A model generated the notes under the pieces. The model did not search any database, was not told the origin of the DNA, and saw only the letters and a program-made list of their open reading frames with translations. Below, piece after piece: positions 12,249 to 34,523 of a stretch of DNA of 48,441 nt; position 1 is the stretch's first letter; each line of letters opens with the position of its first letter. The position numbers and the translations under genes were made by a program. The DNA is from Euzebya rosea (GTDB lineage Bacteria > Actinomycetota > Nitriliruptoria > Euzebyales > Euzebyaceae). The DNA lies in NCBI RefSeq assembly GCF_003073135.1, contig NZ_PGDQ01000025.1, forward strand, positions 1 to 48,441. Direction: 5' to 3'.

Positions 12249-12404
12249 CCCGCCCCAGCCACATCACGCTCGATCAACGACATGACGGTCTGTCGATATC
12301 GGCTGAAATGGGTCTGGTCTCAGTAGTCATTCAGTACTAGTGTCCCGCGGATTCACGGCCCATCGCAGTCCGCTGGCGGGCCCCAAGGAGGAAAGGTCCT
12401 TGCC

Positions 12405-15699: not shown

Positions 15700-17619
15700 T
15701 CAGGTGGTGACGTCCACCGTCTGGCTGATGTCGGAGAGGATCAGGTCCGGGCGGGCCTCCGACGGCGTCTCGAACTCAGGCACCAGCCGGCGCAGGTAGC
15801 GCAGCATCAGCGGGGCGTCGAAGGGCACGGCGTCGAGCTGGGCGGCCAGCTCGGCGACCGGGACCTCCCCGGCGGTCTGCCAGCGGTAGATCTTGGGGTG
15901 CTCGGTGGACAGGGCGCGTTCGGAGGTCAGCCCGAGCTCCTCGTAGAGCTTCTCCCCCGGGCGCAGGCCGACGTACTCGATGTCGATGTCCTGGCCGACC
16001 CGCAGGCCCGACAGCCGGATCAGGTCCTCGGCCATCTGGGTGATCTTGATCTGCTCGCCCATGTCGAGGACGAAGATGTCGCCGCTGGTCCCCATGACCG
16101 CCGTCTGCAGGACGAGCTGGACGGCCTCCGGAATGGTCATGAAGTAGCGACGGACCTCGGGGTGGGTGACCGTGATCGGGCCACCCTGGTCGATCTGCTT
16201 GCGGAACAGGGGGACGACGCTGCCCGATGACCCCAGGACGTTGCCGAACCGGACCGCGGAGTAGGGACGGCCGATCTCGGCGGCCTTCGCCACCACGTAG
16301 CGCTCGGCGGCGCGCTTGGTGGCACCCATGACCGAGGTGGGGTTGACGGCCTTGTCGGTGGAGATCAGGACGAACCGGTCCACTCCCCCGTCGGCGCAGG
16401 CGTCGACCAAAGTCCTGGTGCCGACGACGTTGTTCTTGAACGCCTCGACCGGGTTGGCCTCCATCATCGGGACGTGCTTGTGCGCGGCGGCGTGCACGAC
16501 CAGGGACGGCCGGTGGGTCGAGATGACCTCCCGGATGCGCTGCCGGTCGACGACGTCGGCGATGGCGCAGACCAGCTCGGTCGTGCCCGCGTCGGGGCGC
16601 AGCTCCATCTCGATCTGGTACAGGGCGTTCTCGGCCTGCTCGACCATGACCAGCTTGGCGGGTCGGCGTGCGGCAAGCTGTCGGCAGAGCTCCGATCCGA
16701 TGCTGCCGCCGGCGCCGGTGACCATGACGACACGGCCGGCGACCAGCCGGTCGAGGCCGGCAAGGTCCGTCGCGACGGGATCGCGGTGCAGCAGATCCTC
16801 GAGCTCGATGGCGCGGGGGCGCAGCTCCATGCTGCCGGCGACGACTTGGGCGAGGCCGGCGACCTTCCGGACCTCGATGCCGGCGGTGGCCGCCATCTCC
16901 CCCAGATGCCGCACCAGGTCGGCGGGCGGGGTCTGGATGCAGATCAGTAGCTGCTCGGTCTCGTGGGCCTGGATCAGCTCCGGCAGGTCCGCGATGCCCC
17001 CGAGCACGTCGAGGTTGTGGATCCGCTGCCCCTGCTTGTTGGGGTCGTCGTCGACGAAGCCGACGGGGTCCAGGCCGAGGTCTGGCCGGAGGCGCAGCTG
17101 GCGAGCGACCGCCACACCAGCCTCGCCGGCCCCGATCAGGATCGTCCGGGTGACCGAGTCGCCGGTGGCCCGTCGGATCTCGGCAGACTCCGACAGCGAC
17201 CGACGGACGGCCCGTGCCCCACCCACCGCCACGAGGGAGGTGAAGAAGTTGATCGCCGTGACGCCCAAGGGGATGGACGTCAGCTCGCCTGGCAGTCCCG
17301 GCAGGTCGAGCGACGGGCCCAGCAGGCGCAGGACGGCCAGGGTGGCCGAGGCGATGTAGAGGGCCCGGACCAGCAGGCCGAGGTCGCCGATGGTGACGTA
17401 GCGCCAGCTGCCCTCCACGACGCGCAGGCGGACCATGAGCAGGTACTCCAGGCCGACGACGAACACGAGGACCTGCGCGAGCTGGGTGAAGGACCGGTCC
17501 GGGATGTCCCAGTCGAACCTGATCCAGTACGCCACCACGAGCGCCAACGCCAACAGCGCTATGTCAACCGCTCGTCGTGCCGCCCGCCGTGCCATCGGTG
17601 CTGTCGTGTTCTTCGTCAT
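15700..17619 (-). CDS. Nucleotide-sugar 4,6-dehydratase, WbpM/PglF/CapD type
   Basis: Membrane-bound short-chain dehydrogenase-type enzyme that probably acts on UDP-GlcNAc to start synthesis of a deoxy amino sugar for surface glycans. Its 639 residues match the long WbpM/PglF class: four N-terminal membrane segments (about 18-135), a first Rossmann-like domain (LIGAGEAG, 161-168), then the catalytic domain with the NAD motif TGAGGSIG at 301-308. The active site reads MGATK (431-435), where Met replaces the usual Tyr, typical of this class. The ATG at 17619 follows AGGAGGGG. It is the last gene of the minus-strand polysaccharide region, separated from its neighbour by a strong hairpin. Confidence 0.92.
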   Translation of the reverse strand: MTKNTTAPMARRAARRAVDIALLALALVVAYWIRFDWDIPDRSFTQLAQVLVFVVGLEYLLMVRLRVVEGSWRYVTIGDLGLLVRALYIASATLAVLRLLGPSLDLPGLPGELTSIPLGVTAINFFTSLVAVGGARAVRRSLSESAEIRRATGDSVTRTILIGAGEAGVAVARQLRLRPDLGLDPVGFVDDDPNKQGQRIHNLDVLGGIADLPELIQAHETEQLLICIQTPPADLVRHLGEMAATAGIEVRKVAGLAQVVAGSMELRPRAIELEDLLHRDPVATDLAGLDRLVAGRVVMVTGAGGSIGSELCRQLAARRPAKLVMVEQAENALYQIEMELRPDAGTTELVCAIADVVDRQRIREVISTHRPSLVVHAAAHKHVPMMEANPVEAFKNNVVGTRTLVDACADGGVDRFVLISTDKAVNPTSVMGATKRAAERYVVAKAAEIGRPYSAVRFGNVLGSSGSVVPLFRKQIDQGGPITVTHPEVRRYFMTIPEAVQLVLQTAVMGTSGDIFVLDMGEQIKITQMAEDLIRLSGLRVGQDIDIEYVGLRPGEKLYEELGLTSERALSTEHPKIYRWQTAGEVPVAELAAQLDAVPFDAPLMLRYLRRLVPEFETPSEARPDLILSDISQTVDVTT

Positions 17620-17679
17620 GCCCACCCCTCCTGGGTCCTTGCCCTCACTGGCTTGCTGTTCGGTCCCCACGACCGAACG

Positions 17680-17719
17680 CAACGAGCGCGGTGCGGCTGC
17701 TGCCACACCGCGCTCGTTG
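17680..17719 (-). terminator. Perfect 14-bp hairpin between the wall-binding protein and dehydratase genes
   Basis: CAACGAGCGCGGTG at 17680-17693 pairs without mismatch with 17706-17719 around a 12-base loop. It lies about 30 bases after the stop of the upstream minus-strand gene and about 60 bases before the ATG of the next. It is probably the terminator of the wall-binding protein gene, possibly with read-through into the dehydratase gene. There is no T tract. Confidence 0.7.
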
Positions 17720-20176: not shown

Positions 20177-22093
20177 TCAGCTGGACCGCACCAGACGTAG
20201 ATCGAAGGACGCCGTGCGTGACAACACCCCGTCGATGGTTGTTGACGCCGTGCGCACACCGTCCTCGGCCTCGAGCGCCCAGCCGAGAGGCGCATGGACG
20301 GTCAGGCTGTAGCTCGTGGGGTTGATCGTCGGCTGGTACCACAGGGTTGGGCTGACGCTGCCCTCCGCGCCACTTGCGTCCCAGAGATTGACCAGCTCGA
20401 AGTCGTGGACCACGGTGACCTGATCGCCTGCGGGTGCTCGCTCGACGGTGTTGGCGATCCGGTGGCCGAGCTCGTTGTCGTACCAACGCCCGAGCTCGAG
20501 CGCGTCCGGAGACCTGACCCCGGTGTAGTTGCAGGGGCCGCAGTACAGCGAGATCAGCGACACAGCGTCGCCTACCCGGAACCGGTTGTCGCCGTCGACG
20601 TTCGGGCCGATGAAGTAGGACGGAACGCCGCCGGTCGGGGCATCGTTGACGATCGTGATAGCCATCGTCCCGGTCGCTGACCCGTCGGGGTTCAGGAACA
20701 ACTCCAGGTCGAGTTCCTGATGCGTGAAGTAGTCCACGTGCGACTCGGAGGTGTTGAAGGCGATGGCCGCGAAGTTCCCCGGTTCCGGCGGCAGGAGCTC
20801 CCCGGCAACCCCGAGGCGGCCGAGGGACTCCTGCACGTCGGGGTTGGCGTGATGCATCAGGAGGTGACCGTCACCGACGACCTCTGCAAGGGCGTCGAAC
20901 CGAGCGCGAGGGGCAGCATCGCTGGTCAAGAAGGCCTCGAGGACGGTTTCCGCCGCGATCCCAACCGCTGCCCGACGTTCCCCTTGGCTGTCGAACTGCT
21001 CTGGGGCGTCTCGTATGACCTGTTCGATGACAGTGTCGGCTCGGAGGGTGCCAATCTCGGTCTCTACCGGGCCTGTGACCCGCAGGAACGTCTGAATCGC
21101 AAACGGGTCAACCACGATCACACCGTCGATGCCCTGCCCGACGGCCTCTGGGGCGAAGGCCTCGATCACGTTCGCGACAGAGGGGAAATGCGGAGAGCTG
21201 TTGACGTTGGACCAGCTGCCTCGTCCAAGGTACGCGGTGCCGTACCGATTGAGGAACTCCTCGGATGGCGCGGTGTCGGCGTCGAGGAGATCCCCTGGGA
21301 GGGTTCCAACGCTGATGAACTGTGACAGGCTTGCTCGTCCGTTGATCGCGGTCAGGAACCCGTAGGCACCCATGATTCCTCCGAGGGGACGCTGCTCGGC
21401 CGGGTTCTGGGCGCCCACGAAGTAGCGCTGCGTGCCGTCTTGTCCGAACAGGATGGGCAGGACGCCAGCCAGATCGACGCCGGCCTCGATGGTCCCGATG
21501 ATCTGCTCGAGTTCTGCCAGCAGTTGATCGCCAGCTTGATCGATCCGAGCAACGCGCGTCTGCTCCGGTGCCTGCCCGAACGCATCGCGGATGTCCCGGA
21601 ACTCGGCAAGGGCATCCGCGAGCGGGCTCTGCAGCGATGCAAGCTGATCCAGCCACCCGGAAGAATCAAGGTCGAGCGCTAACGTGGTCAGACCAGCCCC
21701 GCTGTCCAAGGCGGCCTGTAGAAGGGCTTCCCCGGTGCGTGCACTTCGGGCTGCAGTATCCGCCAATGCCACTGCTTTGCGCGCGGTGGAACCCACGAAG
21801 GGCATGACCTGCATCACGCTGAGCGGTTGTCGAGTGAGGAGACCGCTGGCCATCTCCGCATCGGCGCGAGCGCTGGCAACGCGGCTCAAGGCCGCGTCCA
21901 GATCGCCTGCAGAGACGGCGCCGCTGGCATCCTGGATGGCCGTTCGCGCCCGGGTCAATGCGGTTTCGGCAGCTCGGGCATCGCGCACCGCGAAGATGCC
22001 CAAGGCAGCAAGCCCGGAGACGACCAGGCCGACTGCGGCGACCGCCCCTAGCAGGTGTCGTCGACGCCGGGGAGTTCTCGACATAGTGGTCAT
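20177..22093 (-). CDS. DUF4012 family membrane-anchored protein
   Basis: A 638-residue protein with a basic N terminus, one membrane segment at about 15-35 (LLGAVAAVGLVVSGLAALGIF), a helical region to about 200, then the DUF4012 domain (from about FGQDGTQRYFVGAQNPAEQRPLGG through GTAYLGRGSWSNVNSSPHFP). It ends in a beta-rich tail. DUF4012 proteins are found repeatedly in actinobacterial polysaccharide loci; their function is unknown, though the extracellular orientation and context suggest a role in glycan assembly, transfer or attachment. The ATG at 22093 is used; an ATG nine bases further in is equally possible. It is divergent from the small zinc-ribbon gene. Confidence 0.85.
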   Translation of the reverse strand: MTTMSRTPRRRRHLLGAVAAVGLVVSGLAALGIFAVRDARAAETALTRARTAIQDASGAVSAGDLDAALSRVASARADAEMASGLLTRQPLSVMQVMPFVGSTARKAVALADTAARSARTGEALLQAALDSGAGLTTLALDLDSSGWLDQLASLQSPLADALAEFRDIRDAFGQAPEQTRVARIDQAGDQLLAELEQIIGTIEAGVDLAGVLPILFGQDGTQRYFVGAQNPAEQRPLGGIMGAYGFLTAINGRASLSQFISVGTLPGDLLDADTAPSEEFLNRYGTAYLGRGSWSNVNSSPHFPSVANVIEAFAPEAVGQGIDGVIVVDPFAIQTFLRVTGPVETEIGTLRADTVIEQVIRDAPEQFDSQGERRAAVGIAAETVLEAFLTSDAAPRARFDALAEVVGDGHLLMHHANPDVQESLGRLGVAGELLPPEPGNFAAIAFNTSESHVDYFTHQELDLELFLNPDGSATGTMAITIVNDAPTGGVPSYFIGPNVDGDNRFRVGDAVSLISLYCGPCNYTGVRSPDALELGRWYDNELGHRIANTVERAPAGDQVTVVHDFELVNLWDASGAEGSVSPTLWYQPTINPTSYSLTVHAPLGWALEAEDGVRTASTTIDGVLSRTASFDLRLVRSS

Positions 22094-22168
22094 GGTGCCA
22101 TCCCTAGGGGTTGATACAGTCACGCTGCGCCGAACCGGCGAATCCGAACGTGGCAGGGAGGTCGAAGC

Positions 22169-22462
22169 GTGATCAAGGTCGTGTGTGACGTCTGCGGGGC
22201 AGAGGAGGCGACCTCCGCTCTGACCGCTGAGTGGCGGACGATCACGTTCGCTGCCGCTCAATGGAGCGGAGAGAAGGACGCACATGCGCCTGCTCAGCTC
22301 TGTTCAGTGACTTGCGTGGCGCGTTGGGCGGAGGCACACGGGGCTGCCGCGACTTCCACGGCCAGCAAGAAGACGGAGAGGCGCATGTCGGATGATCTCA
22401 AGAGGGCGATGAAGCGACAGGTGGACCTGCGCACCCTGGAGGACGCCAATCCCGCCACCTGA
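22169..22462 (+). CDS. Small Cys-pair (zinc-ribbon-like) protein, function unknown
   Basis: A 97-residue cytoplasmic protein starting at a GTG preceded by GGGAGG. Cys pairs CDVC (residues 6-9) and CSVTC (about 45-49) could bind one zinc ion; between them lies a beta-like stretch (AEWRTITFAAAQW). The C-terminal half is charged and helical (KKTERRMSDDLKRAMKRQ). It is the only plus-strand gene in the polysaccharide locus, 75 bases from the divergent DUF4012 gene and 9 bases from the convergent BY-kinase stop. It could be a small regulator of the locus; the family was not recognised. Confidence 0.65.
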   Translation: MIKVVCDVCGAEEATSALTAEWRTITFAAAQWSGEKDAHAPAQLCSVTCVARWAEAHGAAATSTASKKTERRMSDDLKRAMKRQVDLRTLEDANPAT

Positions 22463-22471
22463 CTACTGTCG

Positions 22472-24214
22472 CTACTCGCTCATTGCAGTCTCAGCGGCAC
22501 TGCCGCGGTTGCGCCGACGCCCCTTGGAAGCCTTCGACCCACGGCGATCGGCCGGCGTCTCTCCGTACCCGTACGCGTAGCTGTACCCGTACCGATAGGC
22601 ATAGTCTCCATATCCACCACCGTCGAGCTTGGCCTTGGTGTAGATATAGCCCAAGACGGGAGTTCCAATCCTGTCGAGCCGCTCGCGCATCTCGGCCAGC
22701 AGTTTCAAGCTAGTGCCTCGCGCCACGACGACGACGATGCCGTCCACGTTCGTTGCGATTGCCGACGCGTCAGAGGCCAGCAGCAAGGGCGGACTGTCCA
22801 CGATGATCAGGTCGGCAACGTCCTTGAGGCGGCTGATAGCCTGTCGGAATCCCGGCGTGCGGAAGAACGCAGCCGTATCATCGCCCAGTGACTTCGCCGG
22901 GATGAAGGGGACGTGCTTCCCCTCGTCGGCGGTCAGGGGCACCACGATGTCCGCGAGGTCGTTTCTCGAATCTGCCAGGGCGGGCAAACCACCGGTGTCC
23001 TTGGCCGCGAGTCTTCGGGTCAGACCCCTCACGCGAGTGTCAGCATCGACGAGAACCACGGCACGGCCATCTTGAGCGGCTGCTACGGCAAGGTTCAAGC
23101 ACGTCACGGTCTTGCCATCCACGGGCGACGCCGAGGTCAAGACCACGGAACGCCCACCACTCTCAGCCAAGGCGAACGCGAGCGCGCCCACGAGGAACTG
23201 GTAGGCCTCACCAGCGGGCGACTTCGGTGCTTCCACCGTGGGGACTGACCCCTCGAGGCCGAGTTCGTCGAAGCTCGGCACAGTGCCTAACAATGGGGCC
23301 TTCAGCATCCGGGACGGATCGTTCCGATCGTCAGCGGTCGCCCTCTCATCTGCGCGCCACCACGCAAAGGTCCCAGCACCCAGGGCGCCGAGGATACCGA
23401 CTAAGAGAGCGTTGCGAATCGGGGTAGGCGCGGACGGAGTGCGCGGCGCCACAGCACGTTCAAATAACTCCACCCCCGACCCAAAGAGGACCGAGTCAAC
23501 AGCAATCTGATCTATCCGGCTGTTTATCGAGATCAGTTGGTTTACCGCCGCATCACGCTCCGCGCGGGAACTGGTATCGCTCGGCGCGGTCGACAACCGT
23601 TCGTCCAATCGATCAATAGTTTCCTGAAGATCCGATCGTTGCGCTTGCAGCTCAGATAGGGATGCCTGGGTTGAACGCGCCGACTCTTCGCGAACGACCG
23701 CTTGATACGCCTCCCCTAAAGCGTTTGCGAGACTCGCCGCCCCGTTCGCCGTCGAATCGGTCGCTTCGATGGTCAATTGATCAAGATCAGTGGCTGGGCG
23801 AATGAGGCTCTGATCCCGAATCGCCTGTACATCAAGGCGACCGTCCATGAGAATGCTAGCCCGATGAAGGACCGTGTTCGACTGGGCAAACTCCGCCTGA
23901 TTACGCACATACCGGGACGGATCCAAGAAGTTCACACCGGTCTCACCGAATAAACCTGTGTTCCGAGGGTCGGCGAGAAGGAGCGACGCCTCTGCTGTGT
24001 ATTCAACAGGTTGAAGAGCCGAGACGCCGAAAGCGAGCAGAGCCGCTGCAACTGTCACGAGCAGCACTCGACGCCACTGAGTTACCACGCTGGCTATCAC
24101 TGGACTCGCCGGCGTACCTGCGACGAGGGTCTCTGGCATCTCACTCAAAGGGTCCTCCGAAGTTCTAGAGACGAACCGTAGCCCAGGATGCTCCCGAACG
24201 TGGTATGAGGGCAT
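22472..24214 (-). CDS. Polysaccharide chain-length regulator fused to BY-type tyrosine kinase
   Basis: Controls polymer length and export in Wzx/Wzy systems. The 580-residue protein has a Wzz-type membrane part with segments at about 49-67 and 268-287 flanking an external coiled region. It is followed by the cytoplasmic BY-kinase domain: Walker A SASPVDGKT (361-369), Walker A' VVLVDAD (386-392), Walker B LIIVDSPPL (about 470). The C terminus carries a Tyr-rich cluster alternating Tyr with Gly or Ala (ending YGYGE), the autophosphorylation site. Start uncertain: the ATG at 24214 lacks a good ribosome binding site, and the ATG at 24139 (MPETL) would still keep the first membrane segment. No low-molecular-weight tyrosine phosphatase gene is visible nearby. 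Confidence 0.93.
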   Translation of the reverse strand: MPSYHVREHPGLRFVSRTSEDPLSEMPETLVAGTPASPVIASVVTQWRRVLLVTVAAALLAFGVSALQPVEYTAEASLLLADPRNTGLFGETGVNFLDPSRYVRNQAEFAQSNTVLHRASILMDGRLDVQAIRDQSLIRPATDLDQLTIEATDSTANGAASLANALGEAYQAVVREESARSTQASLSELQAQRSDLQETIDRLDERLSTAPSDTSSRAERDAAVNQLISINSRIDQIAVDSVLFGSGVELFERAVAPRTPSAPTPIRNALLVGILGALGAGTFAWWRADERATADDRNDPSRMLKAPLLGTVPSFDELGLEGSVPTVEAPKSPAGEAYQFLVGALAFALAESGGRSVVLTSASPVDGKTVTCLNLAVAAAQDGRAVVLVDADTRVRGLTRRLAAKDTGGLPALADSRNDLADIVVPLTADEGKHVPFIPAKSLGDDTAAFFRTPGFRQAISRLKDVADLIIVDSPPLLLASDASAIATNVDGIVVVVARGTSLKLLAEMRERLDRIGTPVLGYIYTKAKLDGGGYGDYAYRYGYSYAYGYGETPADRRGSKASKGRRRNRGSAAETAMSE

Positions 24215-25006
24215 CAACGCTCGCTCTCACGCATTGACAACCCCCCTCGTGCCTGCACGAATTCATCGGGTGCTACGAGTCCTAGTTGCTGCAGGCACAA
24301 CGGTGTCTCGTACCTACCGACCGAGCGGACGCTGCCCCATTCCGCGCCTAGCAAGGTTGCGGAAGGCGTCAACGTGAGACTCTTGGCCTCGGTGTGGTGG
24401 GGCCTAGTCAGCCCGATCATACCCTCCAGCATGCCGCTTTCGGCGCCGCCCCACCAAGATGTTCGAGGTTCGACCGCCCGCGACCCCAAGCGTGCGCGGT
24501 ACCCGGTGTACAAGATGAAGCCGGCCTGGGGTCCGCCACGCCTTGGTCGATCACCCCAACGCAAGAACGAGTGGCCGTAGTATTGCTGCCAGATGCGCCT
24601 GAGACGCAGCCTCGTCGGTCTGCTTCGATCTTCTCCTTTGCCGTCGCGGTTGGCGATCCGTAGCCCGCTGATTAAAACACCGCCACGACCCAGGGGGCCC
24701 TAGGCAACCGGGGCCCACCGACATGAGGCACTGGCCATCCCGCGCGCTATTGGGGGGGCTGCGACCTTGACGCAGTGTTCACGACCAGTACGAACGTGTC
24801 CAACTCCAAACATGCCCTCGATCGCATTCGCACCGATAGCTACCTCCGTTCGCTGTATGGTCGCCCCCCGCCACCCTCCCTTCCCGCACCCATCGGTCGC
24901 TAATGGTGGCATGATCACGCAAAACGCCTGAAACTCAGACAGGAGACCTAGCAAAACTAGTTGCTGCGAGCCCGCCAACTACCTACCGGACTCATCCCCC
25001 GTCCTA
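24215..25006. other. Gene-free interval inside the polysaccharide locus
   Basis: About 790 bases between the BY-kinase gene and the Wzx-type gene hold no recognisable gene. Short minus-strand frames (116 residues at 24214-24564 and 92 residues at 24700-24978) have no signal peptide, domain or good ribosome binding site. The first ends in a TGATG overlap with the kinase ATG, which may be chance. GGGCCC at 24695-24700 and 24711-24716 could form a short hairpin downstream of the Wzx gene, followed on the minus strand by GTTTTAAT. The interval probably contains the promoter of the BY-kinase gene and possibly decayed remnants. Confidence 0.5.
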
Positions 25007-26188
25007 TCAGACCTCGCTAGCGACTACCCGGGAGAGCCTCCGCACTGCATATAACGCCGCACTTGAGTAGACCAGAACAGACGCCAACGCAGCACCCTCT
25101 GCCGACCAGCCAAGTATCAGAATTGGGTAGACAATCAACCCGATCATCCCGCTAATAAGATCTGTCGACGCCGCCGCTTGTGTTTGCCCGAGAGAGATTA
25201 GCCGATTCACCCAGAGGCGGGAGACGGCGAACGCCTGACCTGAAACAGTGAGCCAGAACGCCAACCACCAAGATATGGCGAACTGTTCCCCTAAGATAAG
25301 CGGTACAAAGTAGAGTACAACTGGACCTATCAGCAGGAGGGCACCTAACAGGGCCAGCACTAGCCTACTCATGCCGAATCGCTGCACTGCCATTCCATCC
25401 GGACGCATGGACGCTTCTGACAGCATCTGAACGGGCCACCCAAGCATTTCCCCCAACGTTGCCGGAACCGAGTACACACCTAACGTGGCCAAATTCTGGA
25501 ATGCTGGCAACAATAGACGGTCGGCTCTACGCGTCGCAAATAGCGCTACTCCAGACATCGTGAGGCCGGCGTGGTAGGACCACGCTCTCCAGTGCCCCAG
25601 GAACTCAAGTCTGTTTGTACGTTCTATGACAAGGGTCGAGACGGCCAGACTAAAGGAGAGCAGAGATACCGCCCCAACGACACCATCAGATCGACCCCTC
25701 AAGAACAGTGAAATCGCGGCCAAGCCTAGGACTTGCCCGACGAATGCTTGCAGCAGGAGATCACGAGTTCGCCGCTCAGCAATCAGCAGTCCTCGCGCAA
25801 TGCTGTAGCCCGCAAAGCAGAGAGCGCCTCCGATGACCACAACTCCTTCCCGAAGCAAAGCGACCTCCGGAGACGGAGCGAAGCTTAGCCCAGCCAATAT
25901 CAGACCGACTGCGCTAAAAGCCCGTGCTCGGCCATGTTCGGATCCAAGAATCCTCGCTTCAACCAAGCTCGGCGCAAGCCGCTCGACGCCACCAGCGACA
26001 ACTATGGCAGAACCATATATGAGTTGCAGAAGGAGAGCATACTTACCACGCCCAGTCGGGCCCAAGAGTGCGGCGGTGATAAAGGTTATACCTAGACTTC
26101 CGAGCGCCGTCGCCCCCTGTGAGACAACCAGAACTGCGGCCAAGCGCCGGGCACCTCCCTCAGAACGTGGACTGATGGAACTCACCAT
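25007..26188 (-). CDS. Polysaccharide flippase, Wzx type
   Basis: Integral membrane protein of 393 residues with about 11-12 hydrophobic segments and the arrangement of the MATE/MVF-like oligosaccharide flippases. The N terminus has TALGSLGITFITAALLGPTG followed by GRGKYALLL, a typical Wzx start; a second repeat-like half begins around MSGVALFATRRADRLLL. Expected role: moving the lipid-linked repeat unit across the membrane for polymerisation. It is the last gene of the lower-GC operon, and its start overlaps the polymerase gene by 29 bases. Sequence divergence is normal for this family, so the call relies on topology and context. Confidence 0.85.
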   Translation of the reverse strand: MVSSISPRSEGGARRLAAVLVVSQGATALGSLGITFITAALLGPTGRGKYALLLQLIYGSAIVVAGGVERLAPSLVEARILGSEHGRARAFSAVGLILAGLSFAPSPEVALLREGVVVIGGALCFAGYSIARGLLIAERRTRDLLLQAFVGQVLGLAAISLFLRGRSDGVVGAVSLLSFSLAVSTLVIERTNRLEFLGHWRAWSYHAGLTMSGVALFATRRADRLLLPAFQNLATLGVYSVPATLGEMLGWPVQMLSEASMRPDGMAVQRFGMSRLVLALLGALLLIGPVVLYFVPLILGEQFAISWWLAFWLTVSGQAFAVSRLWVNRLISLGQTQAAASTDLISGMIGLIVYPILILGWSAEGAALASVLVYSSAALYAVRRLSRVVASEV

Positions 26189-27416
26189 GCGGTTGACCTA
26201 TCGCAAGAAGAAGCGTTGCATAAACAAACATTGCGCGGTTGTCCACAATATCACCCGAGACCTGAGCCCCTACCAACGCCAGAATGAACCACGACGATAG
26301 CAGCATGGAACTCGGACGAGAGGACCGAAATATCGCGACTCCGGCGGTACCAATCGTCAAAACAAGGACTACCAATCCTGCCACCCCTGCCTCACAACCG
26401 ACTTCGAGAAATACGTTGTGCGGATAGGGCCATCGCGACATACTAGCGAAGGATGTAGTACCTAGCCCGATCAAGCCAGATGTTCTCGCGCACTCGAGAC
26501 CACTCGTAAATAACACATCACGCTGCGATAGGTATAAGTTCTCGAACGTACGATCCACAATACGATCATCATACACATCCACCACACTTGCCGTGCTGGC
26601 GGGCGCATAGGACCATATAAGGAATACGGCGACTCCCACAACCGTTATGGCCACCAAAGCGGTCCGTGCACTCGGCCTCAACTTCACTACAAGAACCATT
26701 CCAGCCAATAGGGACGCAACTATTGCCCCCCTGGAACCCGTAGCTAGGACCAAAAGCCCTACGATGGGAGCGAACACACCAGCCCAAACCCTGTACGTCT
26801 TCCTTTTTGACCGAAGTGCCAAGTACACCAAGCCCATTAAGAGGGTCCCAAGATGACGGCCCAGTGTGTTCGGCCCCCCACCGAGCACAGCCAGCCGGCC
26901 ACCTCCCAAAGCCAACAGTCCGAAGAGCGCCAGGATGGACCCTAGCAGCAGCACCCCAACGAATAAACCCTGGAAGAAGTCACTCGACCTCCCGGACCAT
27001 ACACATATAACAACGGTCAACAAGACTAGGAGAAGGAGAACCAGCTCTGAAGCCCTCGCATGTGCCAGTCGAGGTTGGATCGCCCAAATGCCTGACAGCG
27101 CAACCCAAGCCACCAGAAGAGGCGGTAGCCAGGCGGTTCGTACAACGGGGGTCTTCTCCTGCCCCGACGCTGCTAGGACAGCCGACCCGAAGGCTAGAAG
27201 AGCCATTACAAGCATCGGCCTAGACAATGTCCGAAAAATGGGGTCCGGGTCGTCCTCGAAGGGATTCCACCGACCCACAAACGCATAAACGGCGGTTGCC
27301 ACGCCACTGACGACCGCGCTAGCACGATCCCTTCGACGCATCCGGACTCGCCAAGAAGTTGACATTCCTACTACGGATCTCCTACCAGCAGACTCACGCC
27401 GCGCTGGGAGGCTCAT
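26160..27416 (-). CDS. O-antigen ligase/polymerase-like protein, Wzy type
   Basis: Integral membrane protein of 418 residues with about ten hydrophobic segments. A long external loop before the last cluster contains YPHNVFLEVGCEAGVAGL, matching the Wzy_C/O-antigen ligase signature (PHN.fL...e.G..G). It probably polymerises the repeat units flipped by Wzx. The ATG at 27416 shares its first base with the stop of the methyltransferase gene (TAATG), fixing a coupled start; an internal ATG at 27365 is the alternative. The gene sits between the methyltransferase and Wzx genes in one operon. Its GC content is clearly lower than that of flanking chromosomal genes. Confidence 0.87.
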   Translation of the reverse strand: MSLPARRESAGRRSVVGMSTSWRVRMRRRDRASAVVSGVATAVYAFVGRWNPFEDDPDPIFRTLSRPMLVMALLAFGSAVLAASGQEKTPVVRTAWLPPLLVAWVALSGIWAIQPRLAHARASELVLLLLVLLTVVICVWSGRSSDFFQGLFVGVLLLGSILALFGLLALGGGRLAVLGGGPNTLGRHLGTLLMGLVYLALRSKRKTYRVWAGVFAPIVGLLVLATGSRGAIVASLLAGMVLVVKLRPSARTALVAITVVGVAVFLIWSYAPASTASVVDVYDDRIVDRTFENLYLSQRDVLFTSGLECARTSGLIGLGTTSFASMSRWPYPHNVFLEVGCEAGVAGLVVLVLTIGTAGVAIFRSSRPSSMLLSSWFILALVGAQVSGDIVDNRAMFVYATLLLAIGQPHGEFHQSTF

Positions 27417-28303
27417 TAGGGCCGCCTGAAAGCAAAGTGAGCATGAACCGTCAAAAGGTCTTCGAGCGAGTAGGGGGTCGGGCATGAAAATCTCCCAGAC
27501 AGGCGAGGAGGGAGTTCATCAACTGGGCGGATATCCGTGGTCAGAGTCTCAAGGTGAATGAAGCCCGCCTCCGAGAATGCACGGACAAAGTCAGAGGACC
27601 GCAGTCGATTCTGGTAGTGCAGGGGGGGGTTCCACAGTCTCCAGACCCTCTCTGAAGCCTGGTAGAACGAGAAGGGTCGGGCGGACATATAGTGATCTCC
27701 CATGGAGGCGTGCATGACCACCACACCGCCCGATCGGACGACCCGAAACAACTCAAGAAGGATGGCATCTAGATCCGCTGGCCGGAGATGCTCCAAAGTA
27801 TGCGCACTCGTGGCCCCATCAATACTTGCACTTGCTAGGCCCGTGCAACGAGCATCCATGGGCGCTAAGTACTCAATGCCCAAGTCAGTGAGAATTGCTT
27901 CCACATGCTTGACACTCGGCAGAGGTTCGGCGTCCAAGGCCAACGCGTTCACCCAATCGCGAGCAAGCGACAGGGAGGGTAGGTCCAAGTGGCGTTCTAT
28001 GTCGACCACCACCTGCCGCGTATACCCCATACGTGCCATCATCAATGGATTGAGCAAATCCCAACCCGCACCAAATTCGAACGTTCTAGTATCGCGTGTG
28101 CCAAGGTACTTGTGTAAAAGTCGTTCGTTCGCGGAGTAGACCTTGAGGGCCTCCTGACCCACACTCTCAGATCTAGGGACCGTGCGGGTGACGTGGCGTT
28201 GTACAAAATGGTAGACAGCCTTGCCGAAGGGAAACACACTAAAGATCCATGCTGCGGCGACCTTAATGTACGGTCGAAGAGAGGCGTACAAAAAGGGGGT
28301 CAT
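27416..28303 (-). CDS. SAM-dependent methyltransferase (class I) in the polysaccharide operon
   Basis: A 295-residue enzyme with a Methyltransf_11-like core: a hydrophobic N-terminal helix (VAAAWIFSVFPFGKAV), the SAM-binding motif TFEFGAGWDLLNPL, an acidic residue after the second strand (VVDIERHLDL), motif SIDGATSAHTLEHL, and VVRSGGVVVMHAS. Probably methylates a sugar hydroxyl or a lipid-linked intermediate; the substrate cannot be told. The ATG at 28303 overlaps the acetyltransferase stop by four bases (ATGA), which means tight coupling. Confidence 0.82.
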   Translation of the reverse strand: MTPFLYASLRPYIKVAAAWIFSVFPFGKAVYHFVQRHVTRTVPRSESVGQEALKVYSANERLLHKYLGTRDTRTFEFGAGWDLLNPLMMARMGYTRQVVVDIERHLDLPSLSLARDWVNALALDAEPLPSVKHVEAILTDLGIEYLAPMDARCTGLASASIDGATSAHTLEHLRPADLDAILLELFRVVRSGGVVVMHASMGDHYMSARPFSFYQASERVWRLWNPPLHYQNRLRSSDFVRAFSEAGFIHLETLTTDIRPVDELPPRLSGRFSCPTPYSLEDLLTVHAHFAFRRP

Positions 28304-28884
28304 GTACTACGCAACACCTTTGCGTAGCACCTCGGACGTGGACCTATAGCGGTGTCCGGGTCCAAGTCCCAACCTGCCCTTTCGTACAACGCATGCCCTG
28401 CGGTCTGATTCTGACCGCTTTCAGCGCGAATAAGCGTTACACCTCGCTGAGAGCAGATACGCACGACCTCATCCAGGAGGCGGCGCCCGATACCTTCTCC
28501 TTGGGCGTACGGCGCCACACTGATGGCATACAAATTGTACACCTCGGCCGAATGCTGTCCCGAAGCAGTCCCTGACAACCATCGCCGTCTGACCTCGACA
28601 GGGTGGCGAAGAAGGACGTAGGCGACGTCACGGATCAGACCAGTGTGGCCATGCCTGATAAGAAACGGGAGCGATTGAGTCCGGGCAGGTGACGCAACAG
28701 CAAATCCCTTAAGGGCACCACCGGCCCTAAAGCCAACTGAAACGGATTCCGGCGCGCGGATCAATGCACTATAAACCTTGGCCAGTGCCGAGGGTCGATA
28801 CATCACCAACAATCCCTCCGACATCGTTGCGGCATGTATCCCAGCCACTTCCCCTGCGTCGTCGATGGTAAGGCTTTCAATCAT
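28300..28884 (-). CDS. GNAT-family N-acetyltransferase
   Basis: A 194-residue acetyltransferase with the acetyl-CoA-binding motif A at about 122-145 (ISVAPYAQGEGIGRRLLDEV; QxxGxG) and the C-terminal NxxAxxLYERAGW strand. In a glycan locus with PLP aminotransferase-type enzymes, N-acetylation of an amino sugar precursor is a likely role, which is inference. It overlaps both neighbours by four bases. Confidence 0.87.
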   Translation of the reverse strand: MIESLTIDDAGEVAGIHAATMSEGLLVMYRPSALAKVYSALIRAPESVSVGFRAGGALKGFAVASPARTQSLPFLIRHGHTGLIRDVAYVLLRHPVEVRRRWLSGTASGQHSAEVYNLYAISVAPYAQGEGIGRRLLDEVVRICSQRGVTLIRAESGQNQTAGHALYERAGWDLDPDTAIGPRPRCYAKVLRST

Positions 28885-29630
28885 TCTGGCGGTAACCCCT
28901 CGTCCGGCTTTGATACCCTCCTCGAGGCAGCCTCGAGAGTCTCAGGATCCAAGCCCCTTTCGGCGAGTTGATTAACCAGCAGTCGAAGCACCAGCCGCCG
29001 ATTGATGGGGTTCATCCCGGTTAATGCCATTAAAACGAGATCATACTTTAAACTGCTGGTCGCGATATAGTGTAGCCCCAGTCTAGATTTCCAAGGTCGA
29101 ATACGGCGGTCGTACTCACCCTCAGGATCTGACCCGGCAATGATCTCGCCTTCGTCTGCAAACACGATTGATGACGCGTCGGTGATACCCGGGCGGACCG
29201 TCAGTAGCGTTCTCTCCGCACGTGTGTAGCGAGCCACATCAGCCGCCACTTGCGGTCGTGGTCCGACCAGCGACATCTCCCCTCGCAGGACATTCAGGAA
29301 TTGGGGGACCTCGTCTAGCTTTGTCTTTCGAATCACACCGCCAGCCTTAGTAATCCGTTTGTCACCTACACCGGTAGAGGCGACACCCGATTTATCGGCA
29401 TTCACGACCATCGAACGCAGTTTTATTAGGCGGAACGGCTTACCTCCCAGACCGATTCTATCGGCAACATACAAAGGATTATGCCTGTCTTCCCAGAAGG
29501 TAGCCAAGGCCGCGATGCCCGCCGCCGGCCCAAGGACCACCAGCCCTAGAGTTGCGCCTACTAAGTCCAGCAATCGTTTACGCTTCGACGACACGTACTG
29601 GTTCGTCGTTGTACCTTGGCATTGACCCAT
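28881..29630 (-). CDS. Sugar transferase, monotopic phosphoglycosyl transferase
   Basis: Starts repeat-unit assembly by moving a phosphosugar from a nucleotide sugar to undecaprenyl phosphate. The 249-residue protein is of the short form: one re-entrant N-terminal hydrophobic helix (LLDLVGATLGLVVLGPAAGI), then the catalytic domain with PFRLIKLRSMVVNAD, TKLDEVPQFLNVLRGEMSLV and GPRPQ. The C terminus is about 45 residues longer than the core domain. The ATG shares one base with the stop of the transketolase C-subunit gene. Confidence 0.93.
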   Translation of the reverse strand: MGQCQGTTTNQYVSSKRKRLLDLVGATLGLVVLGPAAGIAALATFWEDRHNPLYVADRIGLGGKPFRLIKLRSMVVNADKSGVASTGVGDKRITKAGGVIRKTKLDEVPQFLNVLRGEMSLVGPRPQVAADVARYTRAERTLLTVRPGITDASSIVFADEGEIIAGSDPEGEYDRRIRPWKSRLGLHYIATSSLKYDLVLMALTGMNPINRRLVLRLLVNQLAERGLDPETLEAASRRVSKPDEGLPPE

Positions 29631-30526
29631 TAGGCCAGAACCTCCCCTAAGACCATGTTTGAAACCGATTCGGCATCGAGACCGTAGGTCGAACGCATAT
29701 ATTCCTGGCTACCTACAACCGAACTCAGGACATTCGGCACGGACACGGAGAAGTGCGCGACCTTCCTTCGCAATCGACAGGAAATCGCCTCATATACCCC
29801 GCCGTCACGATTGTGTTCTTCCACTACGACGACGTTGGAGAAGCCATCCAAGAATCGGACGAATGACTCCGGCAACGGCTTAACTCTGCTCAAGTAGACG
29901 GGAGTCGCACCGCATGTCTTGGACGCACGTTCTACGATCTGCTGCGTCCCACCCACGCCAACCAAGGCGACAGCGTTCCCCTCACGCTGTGCAGCGTCCC
30001 CCGGCGACGCCCATCCCCCACGAAAGTCGCCAGAAACCTCCTCTGACGATCCGCGTTCCAATCTTATGTAGGCTGGCCATCCTTGCTCAAGGCATTCAGT
30101 CAACGCTTCTCTCGCTTGGGAAGCGTCCCCAGGCGCGTACACATTCATGTTGGGAATCGCCCGCATGATCGCGATGTCCTCAGTTGCATGGTGGGAGTAG
30201 CCGAGTGGACCGTAACCGAAACCCGCGCCCACCGCGACTACGATCACTGGTAGCTGATGGTATGCAACATCGTTGCGGATCTGCTCTAAGCACCGCATAG
30301 TAGCGAAGTTGCCTATGGAATACGTTATGACCTTGCAACCCTCCATGGCTAGACCGGCCGCGAAGCCCATCATGAATTGTTCGGCCACCCCTACGTTGAT
30401 AAACTGCTTAGGAATCTGATGTCGGTAGGCATCAAAGATGCCAAACCCAAGGTCTCCGGTCACTAGACGGATGCTGGCGTCATTCGTAGCAACTGACAGT
30501 AGTTGTTCGATGAACTCGTCACGCAT
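29630..30526 (-). CDS. Transketolase C-terminal subunit (pyrimidine and C-terminal domains)
   Basis: Second half of a split thiamine-diphosphate transketolase, 298 residues. It carries the pyrimidine-binding domain with the catalytic Glu in INVGVAEQFMMGFAAGLA, a substrate His pair (YSHHATED), and a C-terminal domain from about 185. It would pair with the N-terminal subunit encoded just upstream, overlapping by eight bases. Expected reaction: transfer of a two-carbon ketol unit between sugar phosphates. Its position in a glycan operon, with PLP enzymes next to it, suggests a dedicated role in building an unusual sugar. The ATG at 30526 gives the family N terminus (MRDEFIEQLL). Confidence 0.9.
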   Translation of the reverse strand: MRDEFIEQLLSVATNDASIRLVTGDLGFGIFDAYRHQIPKQFINVGVAEQFMMGFAAGLAMEGCKVITYSIGNFATMRCLEQIRNDVAYHQLPVIVVAVGAGFGYGPLGYSHHATEDIAIMRAIPNMNVYAPGDASQAREALTECLEQGWPAYIRLERGSSEEVSGDFRGGWASPGDAAQREGNAVALVGVGGTQQIVERASKTCGATPVYLSRVKPLPESFVRFLDGFSNVVVVEEHNRDGGVYEAISCRLRRKVAHFSVSVPNVLSSVVGSQEYMRSTYGLDAESVSNMVLGEVLA

Positions 30527-31328
30527 GCTGTCGTACCTCCCGCAAGGCCGCCTCGAACTCGTCCCCCTGGGGCGTTCTGTAATGCCAAAGGACCGAATTT
30601 TCCATGAAGGAAACACCTTTTCCCTTGGTGGTATGCGCCAGAATAACGTTTGGCCGATCAGGCGTTGCTTCCGCGAAGGCTGCCTTCAGCGAATTGAAGT
30701 CATGCCCGTCGGCCTCTGAGACATTCCAACCAAATGCCCGCCATTTTTCAGCGAAGGGTTCCAAGCCCACCGTCTCTGCAACGGCTGCGAGACTCTGAAT
30801 CTTATTATAATCAATTATCGCAGTAAGATTGCCTAACCCATTGTGGGCCGCGATGAGAGCTGACTCCCATGTGGTGCCCTCATCGCACTCTCCATCACTC
30901 ATCAGCACGTATACGCGGGGCCGTTGCCCCGTGCTCCGCAGGGCATGCGCCATCCCCACGCCCACGGGCAGGCCGTGACCTAGCGATCCCGTCGAGAACT
31001 CGATTCCCGGGAGGCCGACGTGAGAGACGTGGCCACTCATGAGGCTACCGTCGGCGTAGTGCCTGTGCAGGTAGTCAAGTGGGAAGTACCCGAACTCAGC
31101 AAGTACGGCGTAGAGGGCGGCGCCCGCATGGCCCTTAGACTGAATGAAGCGGTCTCGTTCCGGTGCCTGCGGGTCTTTGGGCCAGTGACTAAGTTCATCC
31201 GAATACAGCTGGACGAGGATCTCTACGATGCCGAGGGCAGAGCCAACGTGACTGCTCTTTCCCCGGTTCGTCATTTCAAGACAATGCTCACGGACTTTAC
31301 GTGCGAGATTAACCTTCTCCTGCGTCAT
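30519..31328 (-). CDS. Transketolase N-terminal subunit (TPP-binding)
   Basis: First half of the split transketolase, 269 residues. It carries the diphosphate-binding domain: GHAGAALYAVL, GSLGHGLPVGVGMAHAL, and the TPP motif DGECDEGTTWE through NLTAIIDYN. It forms a heterotetramer with the C-terminal subunit in known two-gene transketolases. The start overlaps the DegT-type stop by four bases. Confidence 0.92.
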   Translation of the reverse strand: MTQEKVNLARKVREHCLEMTNRGKSSHVGSALGIVEILVQLYSDELSHWPKDPQAPERDRFIQSKGHAGAALYAVLAEFGYFPLDYLHRHYADGSLMSGHVSHVGLPGIEFSTGSLGHGLPVGVGMAHALRSTGQRPRVYVLMSDGECDEGTTWESALIAAHNGLGNLTAIIDYNKIQSLAAVAETVGLEPFAEKWRAFGWNVSEADGHDFNSLKAAFAEATPDRPNVILAHTTKGKGVSFMENSVLWHYRTPQGDEFEAALREVRQHA

Positions 31329-32434
31329 GCGGGTCCCTCGTAGAAACTCCGCACAGCCGCTGCCACCTCTAGGACGTCCGCATCAGACATATAGGGGTTC
31401 ATCGGCAACATGAGGATACGAGAGAAAACCTCAGTCGTTCTCGGACAGTCGCCACTTAAACCAGGCAACCCAAGCTGGTGAAGTGCCTTCCCTCCCCAAG
31501 GGAGAAGAGTTCCAATCTTCTGGTCTGCCAACGCGTCCCTCAACTCATCTCGATCATGCGCTTCGATCTCATAGTTCTGAAAGACGTCAAACCTATTCGG
31601 TTCCTCGCCAGGGGGCGCAGGTAGGCGCAACTGGGGCAAGTCCCGCAACTCCTGATCATACAGGGACGCGATGTCCCGGCGACGGTCCACTGTCCGTTCG
31701 TACTTTTCCAATTGCACGGACAGGACCGCCGCCTGCACCGTGTCCATTCGACTGTTCCTACCCCACGTCCTGATCTCACCGGTTTCATCTCGTCCATGGT
31801 CGCGGAAGGCCCGCATGCGGGGCAACATGTCCCCATGGCGACTTACCAGTGCCCCCCCGTCCCCGAACGCTCCGAGCAATTTGGCCGGGTAGAAGCTATA
31901 GGCCCCGAAGTCACCGACTGTACCTGCGGTCAAACCGTCGACGCGCGCCCCGACGCTTTGCGCCGCATCCTCCACCACCCGAAGGTCATGCCGTTCGGCA
32001 AGCCTCTTGATGGCAGCGGGGTGGACGGCTCGACCATTGAGATGGACCGGCACTAGAGCGACCGTGCGGGATGTAATCAAACTCTCAGCGTGCTCTAGGT
32101 CGATAAGGTGGTCTTCCCCACAGTCTACCAGAATGGGTTTAAGTCCAGCCCAGTGGATAGCTTCGGCTGTGGCCACAAATGTATGTGACGGGACTAAGAC
32201 CTCGCCTCCCGCGGGCAGGCTCAGTAGTTCCAGAGCGATCTCCAAGGCGTCGGTACAGTTGTTGACGCCAACCACCGAAGGCACCTCGAGGTAATCCGAG
32301 AACGCCACTTCGAAATCCGTTAATGCCTTCTGCAGAATGAAGCCACCTGATTCGAGGACACCTTCGATTGCCCTCTGGTAACTGGCCCGGTCAACTTTGT
32401 AGTGTTCGGAGTAGGGAAAGTAGGTAACTGGCAT
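31325..32434 (-). CDS. DegT/DnrJ/EryC1/StrS-family PLP sugar aminotransferase
   Basis: PLP enzyme of 369 residues, the normal length for nucleotide-sugar aminotransferases. Motifs: NCTDALEIALELL (cofactor phosphate binding), EDAAQSVGARVDG (Asp for the pyridine nitrogen), and SFYPAKLLGAFGDGGALV with the Schiff-base Lys. Probably transfers an amino group from Glu to a keto-sugar, conceivably made by the transketolase. The ATG at 32434 follows GGAAGGAA; a TTG six codons earlier is less likely. It lies five bases after the second DegT-type gene. Confidence 0.93.
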   Translation of the reverse strand: MPVTYFPYSEHYKVDRASYQRAIEGVLESGGFILQKALTDFEVAFSDYLEVPSVVGVNNCTDALEIALELLSLPAGGEVLVPSHTFVATAEAIHWAGLKPILVDCGEDHLIDLEHAESLITSRTVALVPVHLNGRAVHPAAIKRLAERHDLRVVEDAAQSVGARVDGLTAGTVGDFGAYSFYPAKLLGAFGDGGALVSRHGDMLPRMRAFRDHGRDETGEIRTWGRNSRMDTVQAAVLSVQLEKYERTVDRRRDIASLYDQELRDLPQLRLPAPPGEEPNRFDVFQNYEIEAHDRDELRDALADQKIGTLLPWGGKALHQLGLPGLSGDCPRTTEVFSRILMLPMNPYMSDADVLEVAAAVRSFYEGPA

Positions 32435-32439
32435 AACGG

Positions 32440-33492
32440 CTATTCCTTCCAACTGCGGGCGAAACGTGCTATTCGGGCAGCCTCACCCAACGAGAGTCGG
32501 GGTGTGATGGGAAGCGACACGATGTGCTGAGAGGCTTCTCTTGCATTCCGAGTGTGAGCAATCTGGGAGTTGTAGATCTGGGGCACTAGGTCATCTGTTA
32601 GGGGGTCTACGGAGGTCGCGAACCAGTCTGCCAATTCGATAAACCGACGCCTGGCAGCCGAGAGCACTCTGGCCTTGTCGGCCACCCATATTGGGTAACG
32701 AAGAAGTTCTGCCTCGTCTTCATGGTCCACGGAGGCACCTACGACGGCGTCATAGATGGATCGGATGGCCCCAAGGTGCGGTTCGCGTTCGGCGCGTTTG
32801 CGCCCCACGGTTTCGATTCGCGCGACCGTGCCGGGTTCCAACCTTCTCCTGAATTCCGTATCATTGATGTCAAAGTTTCCCTTAGATGAAAATCTTCCGA
32901 TGAGGTTGAAACTCGCTTTTAGTGCCCAGTATGTCTCTGGCCGATAGGAGTATCTGAATGCCGCGGCCATTGCGTCATGAACTGGATCGGATGGGGCCAA
33001 CTCATAGGACGCCGCATAGACATCTGCTAGAAGTCGGCGATATTCTTCGTTGAGGACTAGTCCGCCTCCCCTGCCCAAGGGCAGTGGTTTTCCCCACTCA
33101 TAGGAGAAGACACTTGCGAACGCCCGACCCTCCTCAAAGTACGGTGCATCCGTTCGATGCGCGGCATCCTCAATAATTGGCACGGAGGACGGGAGCGCTT
33201 CCAGTGAAGTTCGGGGGAACGTCGCACCGAACGTGTGCTGAACAATAAAGGCGTCTAGGTGACCCGCAGATCTCACCTGCGCCGCACCAGGGAAGATGGA
33301 CCTCTCGGCCGTATCTACAAACACCGGATGGTGCCCGGCAGCAACCACCGCGTCAGGCACGGCACGACAGGTGTATGCCTGAAGACCGACCCGAGACTTC
33401 GGGTCAAGATTTAGAATTCTCAACGCGGTTGCCATAGCGACCCGACCGCGAGGAAACACGAACTGTGGCAACAGCACTTCCGTGGCGTTCAT
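32440..33492 (-). CDS. Divergent DegT-like PLP-dependent enzyme
   Basis: A 350-residue fold-type I PLP protein related to DegT/DnrJ. It retains IIEDAAHRTDAP (cofactor Asp) and SYEWGKPLPLGRGGGLV, where the Lys matches the Schiff-base position, but the usual GEGG or GDGG is GRGG. The substrate-binding half differs strongly from its neighbour. It could be a second aminotransferase, a 3-dehydratase-like enzyme, or an altered activity on a non-nucleotide substrate. It overlaps the glycosyltransferase gene by four bases. The PLP fold is well supported; the reaction is unknown. Confidence 0.78.
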   Translation of the reverse strand: MNATEVLLPQFVFPRGRVAMATALRILNLDPKSRVGLQAYTCRAVPDAVVAAGHHPVFVDTAERSIFPGAAQVRSAGHLDAFIVQHTFGATFPRTSLEALPSSVPIIEDAAHRTDAPYFEEGRAFASVFSYEWGKPLPLGRGGGLVLNEEYRRLLADVYAASYELAPSDPVHDAMAAAFRYSYRPETYWALKASFNLIGRFSSKGNFDINDTEFRRRLEPGTVARIETVGRKRAEREPHLGAIRSIYDAVVGASVDHEDEAELLRYPIWVADKARVLSAARRRFIELADWFATSVDPLTDDLVPQIYNSQIAHTRNAREASQHIVSLPITPRLSLGEAARIARFARSWKE

Positions 33493-34523
33493 CGACGTAC
33501 CACACGATCAAGTAGGCCAAGTAGCGAACCGGCACCGTAGGCAACGTGGTGGATCGGGTATAGAAGGGCTACAACAGGCAATACGTCAGACCGTCCCAAT
33601 CTGTCGGCACTTCGCTTCGCATAGACTAGGGACAACGCGACATAGGGGATCGGAGCATAGGTTAGTTTGGAGCACCTCCCTTTTAGGAGTCCGAGCCAAG
33701 TAAGACCCAGCAGCAAGAGGCTTAGAGGGGCGAAATTCCGTCGTGCCAGCAATCGAAAGTCTGTAAGTGAGTCGGCATAGAACAACCAACGTGCCCCGTC
33801 GAATGTCCATTTGATCGATTCCTTAACGGAAGACCTCGCGACGTACTCACAACGAATAGTAGGAGACATCGCTATTCGGCCCCCAGCATGACGAAGCCTG
33901 TAGTTAAACTCTCGGTCCTGCGCTCGAAGCAAACGCTCATCAAATAGACCTATTCGGTCAAATACATCCATCCGATAACAGCCCCCGAACACTGTATCGA
34001 CGTCCTTTGGTTCTGCGCTCCCAAGTCGATAGCTCGCATCACCGGCCGCAAACGGATCATTCAAGAGCGCAGCCAAAGCGGCCCCGACTAGCCTCGATGG
34101 GATATGGGTATCTCGGACGCCCCCCACGTTGTCTGCTCCACTATCCATGAGGAAGCCAACTAGGTCCTCCAGGTACGTGGAGGGATACGAAGCGTGAGCG
34201 TCTAACCGGACAAAAACCTCGTAGTTCTTTCGTCGCTGGAGGGCTAGATTCAGGGCCGCAGGCTTGGAGCCTCCCGGATTATGTAGAAGTTCCACAAAGT
34301 CATACTTGCGGCCGTAGTCCTCTACAAGGCCAACCGTGCCGTCCGTGCTGCCCCCGTCAAGGACAAGTACGCGAAGCCTAGACACTGGGTAAGTCCCCGT
34401 CCTCAAGCCCTCTAGGAGTCTGCGAATATGTGGCGCCTCGTTTAGTACAGGCATCGCTATCAGGACGCGCGGGGCCCTCGTGCCGGCGACAGTCTTCGAT
34501 TCTCGCAAGTCTTTGCTTTCCAT
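33489..34523 (-). CDS. Glycosyltransferase family 2 with C-terminal membrane segments
   Basis: Inverting GT-A enzyme of 344 residues. The domain starts at VLIAMPVLNEAPHIRRLLEG, has VLDGGSTDGT and the metal-binding DXD region (FVRLDAHASYP), and an ED-like motif (RAQDREFNYRLRHAGG). Two or three hydrophobic segments follow (about 265-335), so it is membrane-attached. It is the only glycosyltransferase seen in the locus apart from the phosphoglycosyl transferase, and the first gene of the lower-GC operon. The ATG at 34523 is used. Confidence 0.9.
   Translation of the reverse strand: MESKDLRESKTVAGTRAPRVLIAMPVLNEAPHIRRLLEGLRTGTYPVSRLRVLVLDGGSTDGTVGLVEDYGRKYDFVELLHNPGGSKPAALNLALQRRKNYEVFVRLDAHASYPSTYLEDLVGFLMDSGADNVGGVRDTHIPSRLVGAALAALLNDPFAAGDASYRLGSAEPKDVDTVFGGCYRMDVFDRIGLFDERLLRAQDREFNYRLRHAGGRIAMSPTIRCEYVARSSVKESIKWTFDGARWLFYADSLTDFRLLARRNFAPLSLLLLGLTWLGLLKGRCSKLTYAPIPYVALSLVYAKRSADRLGRSDVLPVVALLYPIHHVAYGAGSLLGLLDRVVRR

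Follow-up and report, generated by a model that had tools for sequence, protein, structure and literature searches.

We examined a stretch of 48,441 nucleotides from Euzebya rosea (contig NZ_PGDQ01000025.1, referred to here as the window), in which an operon on the minus strand encodes, from position 34,523 to 25,007, a GT2 glycosyltransferase, two DegT-type proteins that we call DegT2 and DegT1, the two subunits of a split transketolase (TktN and TktC), a sugar-phosphate transferase (PGT), a GNAT acetyltransferase, a methyltransferase, Wzy and Wzx. We regard these genes as a single operon because adjacent genes overlap or abut. The preliminary description of the window had pointed to a two-subunit transketolase beside two DegT-type genes in a Wzx/Wzy polysaccharide operon, and the coordinates of these four genes, which we verified and which all lie on the minus strand, agree with this, as do their Pfam matches. 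We propose, with a probability of about 0.5, that the product of the operon is a C2-branched amino sugar, made by means of a ketone-accepting split transketolase and amination of the branch.

TktN, the thiamine diphosphate (ThDP)-binding subunit (30519..31328, minus strand; PF00456, 1.8e-40), is followed by TktC, the pyrimidine-binding/C-terminal subunit (29630..30526, minus strand; PF02779, 5.5e-31; PF02780, 2.4e-5, slightly under its cut-off). The start of TktC should most likely be moved from 30616 to the ATG at 30526, which has GGGAGGT upstream and overlaps the TktN stop. The Pfam and NCBIfam matches of the two subunits are to transketolase, DXS and pyruvate dehydrogenase E1, with no decarboxylase-type family among them, and the closest solved structure is that of the split transketolase from Carboxydothermus hydrogenoformans (6yak/6yaj). 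Since two full-length transketolases are encoded on other contigs of the genome (G000:C20, 4.7e-146; G000:C4, 2.3e-141), TktN-TktC is not the housekeeping enzyme, and the circumstance that the preliminary description had named as fatal to its own proposal, namely that the pair is the only transketolase of the cell, does not apply.

We aligned the pair with full-length transketolases and number its residues according to the E. coli enzyme. TktN keeps the equivalents of H26, H66, H100, D155, E160 and H261, and TktC those of E411, H473, R358 and R520, so that both the N and C subunits and all ThDP and catalytic residues checked for the split transketolase superfamily are present. The canonical sugar-phosphate site (R358, S385, H461, D469 and R520), however, is reduced to R358 and R520, as TktC has G in place of H461, L in place of D469 and G in place of S385. 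Judged by these residues, the pair is a split transketolase in its architecture and catalytic site and not a canonical sugar-phosphate enzyme in its substrate site. Loss of H461 and D469 is common to nearly all split transketolases of glycan-like loci, while both residues are kept in canonical split enzymes (from Omnitrophota, Clostridia and others) and in full-length ones. The exceptions are a pair from Azospirillum B510, which keeps D469, and catabolic pairs adjoining FGGY kinases, which have S or N at 461 and L at 469. Residue 385 was considered as a class marker and dropped, being variable and dependent on the alignment. S385, D469 and R520 of the E. coli transketolase have been changed to shift the enzyme from phosphorylated to non-phosphorylated acceptors (PMC5073344), which offers an analogy for the residues lost from TktC, not a proof. 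The two residue types were also seen at one locus, on a Solidesulfovibrio plasmid (L031), where two different split transketolases (1130-2898 and 11000-13002), one with H461/D469 and one with G461/L469, flank pseB-pseC.

DegT1 (31325..32434, minus strand; PF01041, 8.8e-87) is a pyridoxal phosphate (PLP) aminotransferase of a distinct subfamily, whose start should most likely be moved from 32452 to the ATG at 32434, just past the DegT2 stop and with GGAAGGA upstream. The PF01041 match is full-length (residues 25-368) and the PLP lysine lies in the motif SFYPAKLLG. Among the nearest solved relatives by sequence are 7b0d, 2oga, 3frk (QdtB) and 3nyu (WbpE), with QdtB and WbpE ranking ahead of PseC and ArnB. 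Members of the subfamily share the motifs DVFQNYEIEA and LPWGG(K/R)xxHQ, the latter replacing the HYPxPxHxQ of other DegT proteins (LPWGGKALHQ in the window); DegT1 thus does not have the motif of 4-aminotransferases, and it scores under the cut-off of every NCBIfam equivalog. In an even sample of 396 Actinomycetota genomes the subfamily was found in five, at 596 to 707 bits, that is, at least 596 bits, as against 323 bits or less for other DegT proteins (two families searched completely), and all five genomes also carry the transketolase class of the window. This constant co-occurrence, together with the subfamily's own motifs, argues that both enzymes act in one route. Searches of plasmids and phages with stringent cut-offs detected no DegT1 homologues. 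An Azospirillum oryzae plasmid (L085, 5789-11101) has a ThDP E1 alpha/beta pair, of another ThDP superfamily, followed by two DegT genes, with a short-chain dehydrogenase/reductase (SDR), a PfkB kinase and a SIS protein; we rejected it as a homologous module, because its DegT proteins retain the usual HYP motif, and regard it as an analogy only.

The second DegT-type gene is of a different character. DegT2 (32440..33492, minus strand) is a divergent, shortened DegT-type PLP protein that matches PF01041 (9e-14) only over residues 17-150, with a lysine at the expected place in EWGKPLPLGRGGG; its AlphaFold2 single-sequence model, with a predicted local distance difference test (pLDDT) score of 34, was unusable. 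One weak homologue was present in the 396 genomes, and no close relatives were found in 30 genomes of the order, in the 396 of the phylum or in plasmids. DegT2 is likely accessory, and the four-gene set tktN-tktC-DegT-DegT, which the preliminary description had suggested looking for in other glycan loci, is not conserved; the unit that recurs is PGT-TktN-TktC-DegT1(-PglF).

A TktC profile matched 14 of the 396 genomes, that of the window included, at 310-411 bits, with the next matches at 299 bits or less. Comparison of the regions around TktC matches (up to 20 kb each) revealed two kinds of module. In type A, TktN-TktC is accompanied by rfbF, rfbG, usually rfbH and mostly an SDR. This module was found in three phyla, in Methylovirgula (L023), Paenibacillus (L030) and three Actinomycetota (L066, L067 and L072); the Paenibacillus locus is without rfbH and the other four have all three rfb genes. 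RfbH exceeds its cut-off of 423 bits in all four loci having it, at 631-712 bits, RfbF passes its curated cut-off in L066, the single locus tested, and the RfbG-like proteins of the Actinomycetota loci score under theirs. RfbH occurs in 23 of the 396 genomes and is no more than a few kb from the pair in all three genomes that have both. These rfb genes are CDP-4-keto sugar genes, of the pathway in which YerE acts in yersiniose. In the type A locus of Paenibacillus cellulosilyticus (8097-10001) the SDR and TktN form a fusion of 635 residues, which TktC follows.

The type B module, PGT-TktN-TktC-DegT1, was observed in the window and in four other Actinomycetota. PglF accompanies DegT1 and PGT in the window and in two of these relatives (L069 and L071), where it stands directly after DegT1; in L070 there is no PglF within the stretch fetched, and in L075/L090 the module is apparently split by a contig end. 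L069 also has, within the same kind of module, a homologue of the GT2 protein (35% identical). Thus the pair is linked to keto-sugar-nucleotide genes through rfbF and rfbG, with or without rfbH, in five relatives, and through DegT1 and PGT in the window and four more. Sugar-nucleotide or glycosyltransferase genes were present at 17 of 24 loci with G461 versus 2 of 19 others (Fisher p = 0.0001), a difference that is indicative only, as sampling of the loci was not blind and they had themselves supplied some of the reference proteins. In a phylogenetic tree the canonical split enzymes fall outside the window class, and the FGGY-linked pairs form a clade of their own with 100% support, outside which the window pair falls.

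Other neighbourhoods were noted in passing. Glycan-type split transketolases in L008, L015 and L029 lie near B12-binding or other radical S-adenosylmethionine (SAM) proteins and methyltransferases, which perhaps reflects C-methylation of the same sugar. In a large-genome actinobacterium (L081 of G315, 6239-11445) a DegT gene precedes a TktN-TktC pair with H461 but L469, and a BtrH_N protein and 2-oxoglutarate-Fe (2OG-Fe) oxygenases are neighbours; this looks like a secondary-metabolite cluster, possibly with a transketolase of the proposed ketone-accepting kind.

How might these enzymes act together? PglF, a PglF/WbpM-like UDP-N-acetylhexosamine (UDP-HexNAc) 4,6-dehydratase (15700..17706, minus strand; PF02719, 5.7e-116), is the genome's only full-length PF02719 protein, and we propose it as the source of the 4-keto acceptor. 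It would convert UDP-HexNAc to a 4-keto-6-deoxy nucleotide sugar, and TktN-TktC would move a two-carbon ketol unit from a ketose onto the 4-ketone, not onto an aldose phosphate, leaving a tertiary alcohol that bears a hydroxyacetyl branch. DegT1 would then transaminate the branch ketone and the GNAT protein (28300..28884, minus strand; PF00583, 1.4e-9) would acetylate the new amine. PGT, a monotopic sugar-phosphate transferase of the Bac_transf type (28881..29630, minus strand; PF02397, 4e-45), would put the sugar phosphate onto the lipid carrier, with polymer assembly left to GT2 (33489..34523, minus strand; PF00535, 1.4e-17), Wzx and Wzy. In type B generally, PglF would supply UDP-4-keto-6-deoxy-HexNAc as the acceptor ketone and DegT1 would aminate the branch. 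For type A we propose CDP-4-keto-3,6-dideoxyglucose or CDP-4-keto-6-deoxyglucose as the acceptor, with reduction of the branch by the SDR. The proposal builds on the gene content, the operon structure, the residues kept and lost, the strict co-occurrence with DegT1 and the recurrence beside keto-sugar genes. From these we infer the donor, the identity of the acceptor, the position of the branch and the order of the steps, as well as the action of DegT1 on the branch and the role of the GNAT protein. More tentatively, a widespread and unrecognised class of split transketolases in surface-glycan loci may build hydroxyacetyl-branched nucleotide sugars, with the LPWGGK-type DegT aminating one such branch to give C2-branched amino sugars. 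We found no description of C2-branched amino sugars in polysaccharides in the literature examined, and on transketolases of polysaccharide loci or branched nucleotide sugars only a ThDP review and the octose papers were relevant.

Several observations weigh against a ketone-accepting enzyme followed by branch amination. The FGGY-linked catabolic pairs are likewise without H461 and D469, so that this loss alone is no proof of a ketone acceptor, and the retained R358 and R520 are compatible with a phosphorylated donor or acceptor. Some members of the class (L073 and L074) are not beside sugar-nucleotide genes. PglF is 14 kb away and, with a GC content at third codon positions (GC3) of 0.93, resembles resident genes; it may serve other sugars or the whole locus. 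The window TktN-TktC branches apart from the remaining DegT1-linked pairs, a single transketolase clade of all such pairs being rejected by the approximately unbiased (AU) test (p = 0.004), and its position in the tree is near Methylovirgula and L072, which are type A members. Either two transketolase lineages have become paired with DegT1 or the window pair does something else; the former, if true, would strengthen the functional link.

Other routes were also considered. The core of the bacillosamine route consists of PglF, an aminotransferase and PGT, all of which are present here, and a route of this kind would have PglF and DegT1 make an ordinary amino sugar by amination at the ring ketone, the GNAT protein acetylate this sugar and PGT load it, while the transketolase makes a separate, possibly branched or chain-altered sugar. 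DegT1 would suit it, having the full length of a DegT aminotransferase and the PLP lysine, but scores far under the PseC, WecE and ArnB cut-offs, has QdtB and WbpE above PseC and ArnB among its solved relatives, has HYPxPxHxQ replaced and never occurs without the transketolase class in the 396 genomes; we consider such a route unlikely, though worth keeping in mind. Improbable in our view is an ordinary sugar-phosphate transketolase that raises the supply of pentose or sedoheptulose phosphate for heptose or another precursor. The retained R358 and R520 and the C. hydrogenoformans enzyme as nearest solved relative would fit this role, but the genome already has its two full-length transketolases, the class stands apart from canonical split enzymes in the tree, and we saw no heptose gene in the operon.

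The preliminary description had preferred a step of the 3-amino-5-hydroxybenzoic acid (AHBA) type, in which the transketolase cleaves an amino-ketose phosphate and the amino group passes to a shorter sugar. Rifamycin-type clusters do pair a transketolase step with a DegT enzyme, but the AHBA route also requires UDP-glucose 3-dehydrogenase, UDP-kanosamine phosphatase, kanosamine kinase, an isomerase and aminoDAHP synthase (PMC8788734). None of the genes scanned from 15.7 to 34.5 kb, the only part of the genome searched for them, is a homologue of RifL, RifM, RifN, RifH or RifG; with H461 and D469 lost and the kin of the pair adjoining keto-sugar-nucleotide genes instead, we think this route very improbable. 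What survives of the earlier proposal is a dedicated split transketolase that, with DegT, points to an unusual amino sugar; the AHBA-like cleavage and the four-gene unit do not.

The remaining genes of the operon, all on the minus strand, are a SAM methyltransferase (27416..28303; PF08241, 2.3e-6), a Wzy/O-antigen-ligase-like membrane protein (26160..27485; PF04932, 6e-11) and a putative Wzx-like flippase (25007..26188), which is without Pfam match; its position and apparently membrane-like character suggested the assignment. Beyond the operon on the same strand lie a Wzz chain-length protein fused to a tyrosine-kinase-type ATPase (22472..24217; PF02706, 8e-6; PF01656, 3e-7), a DUF4012 protein, a CWB2 protein and then PglF. 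A DUF4012 protein stands beside a Wzz/tyrosine-kinase-like protein both in the window (20,177-24,217) and in L070 (12430-15776), and may be part of this type of polysaccharide locus. GC3 is 0.56-0.64 in the operon, compared to 0.88-0.93 in most flanking genes, and the operon therefore looks horizontally acquired; when the next two genes are included (22,400-34,523), the GC3 range is 0.56-0.76. In L069 and L071 the PglF genes are likewise of high GC3 and adjoin low-GC3 cassettes. It is thus doubtful that PglF is a member of a mobile cassette, its GC3 being resident-like in all three loci.

Ketone-accepting transketolases are sought as biocatalysts for chiral tertiary alcohols (PMC12247030), and the loci described here offer candidates from several phyla with predictable acceptors. 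Since UDP-4-keto-6-deoxy-GlcNAc and CDP-4-keto-3,6-dideoxyglucose are enzymatically accessible, the question is directly testable. If our proposal is true, the known repertoire of bacterial surface glycans would gain branched amino sugars, and a G at 461 combined with the absence of D469, together with the LPWGGK motif of DegT1, would provide a signature for searches.

Among known systems, the C. hydrogenoformans split transketolase shares the two-subunit architecture and is the best solved match, but keeps the equivalents of H461 and D469, both of which the window pair has lost. The catabolic split transketolases beside FGGY kinases, which we take to be of the apulose-4-phosphate type, are also split and also have D469 replaced by L; they differ in having S or N at 461, in being flanked by a sugar kinase together with genes for transport or regulation, and in forming their separate clade, whereas the window operon contains no kinase and its pair lies outside that clade. 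YerE, a ThDP enzyme of yersiniose A synthesis, attaches a two-carbon branch at the keto group of CDP-4-keto-3,6-dideoxyglucose, a sugar bound for a surface polysaccharide (PMC12247030, PMC4753412), and both yersiniose and paulomycose contain a C2 branch in reduced form (PMC4753412). The proposed likeness to YerE and YerE-like lyases thus lies in ThDP-dependent C2 branching of a keto sugar nucleotide destined for a surface polysaccharide. However, YerE is a single-chain flavoenzyme of the decarboxylase family that transfers acetyl from pyruvate, while the window encodes a two-subunit transketolase without any decarboxylase-family match, for which we propose hydroxyacetyl transfer. In kibdelomycin synthesis a two-subunit ThDP branching enzyme of the Alpha-KADH2 type makes an acetyl branch whose ketone is then transaminated (PMC12247030), an order of events like that proposed here; it belongs to another ThDP superfamily, takes its acetyl branch from pyruvate and serves an antibiotic and not a polysaccharide. 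Closest in proposed chemistry are the split-gene transketolases of miharamycin and amipurimycin, thought to move a hydroxyacetyl unit to a keto sugar; according to a 2025 review, ketone-accepting split transketolases have only been proposed, for these two and 13 putative sequences, all from Streptomyces, with none assayed (PMC12247030). Those genes, which we compared by description only, belong to Streptomyces antibiotic clusters, whereas the class described here is found in surface-glycan operons of several phyla.

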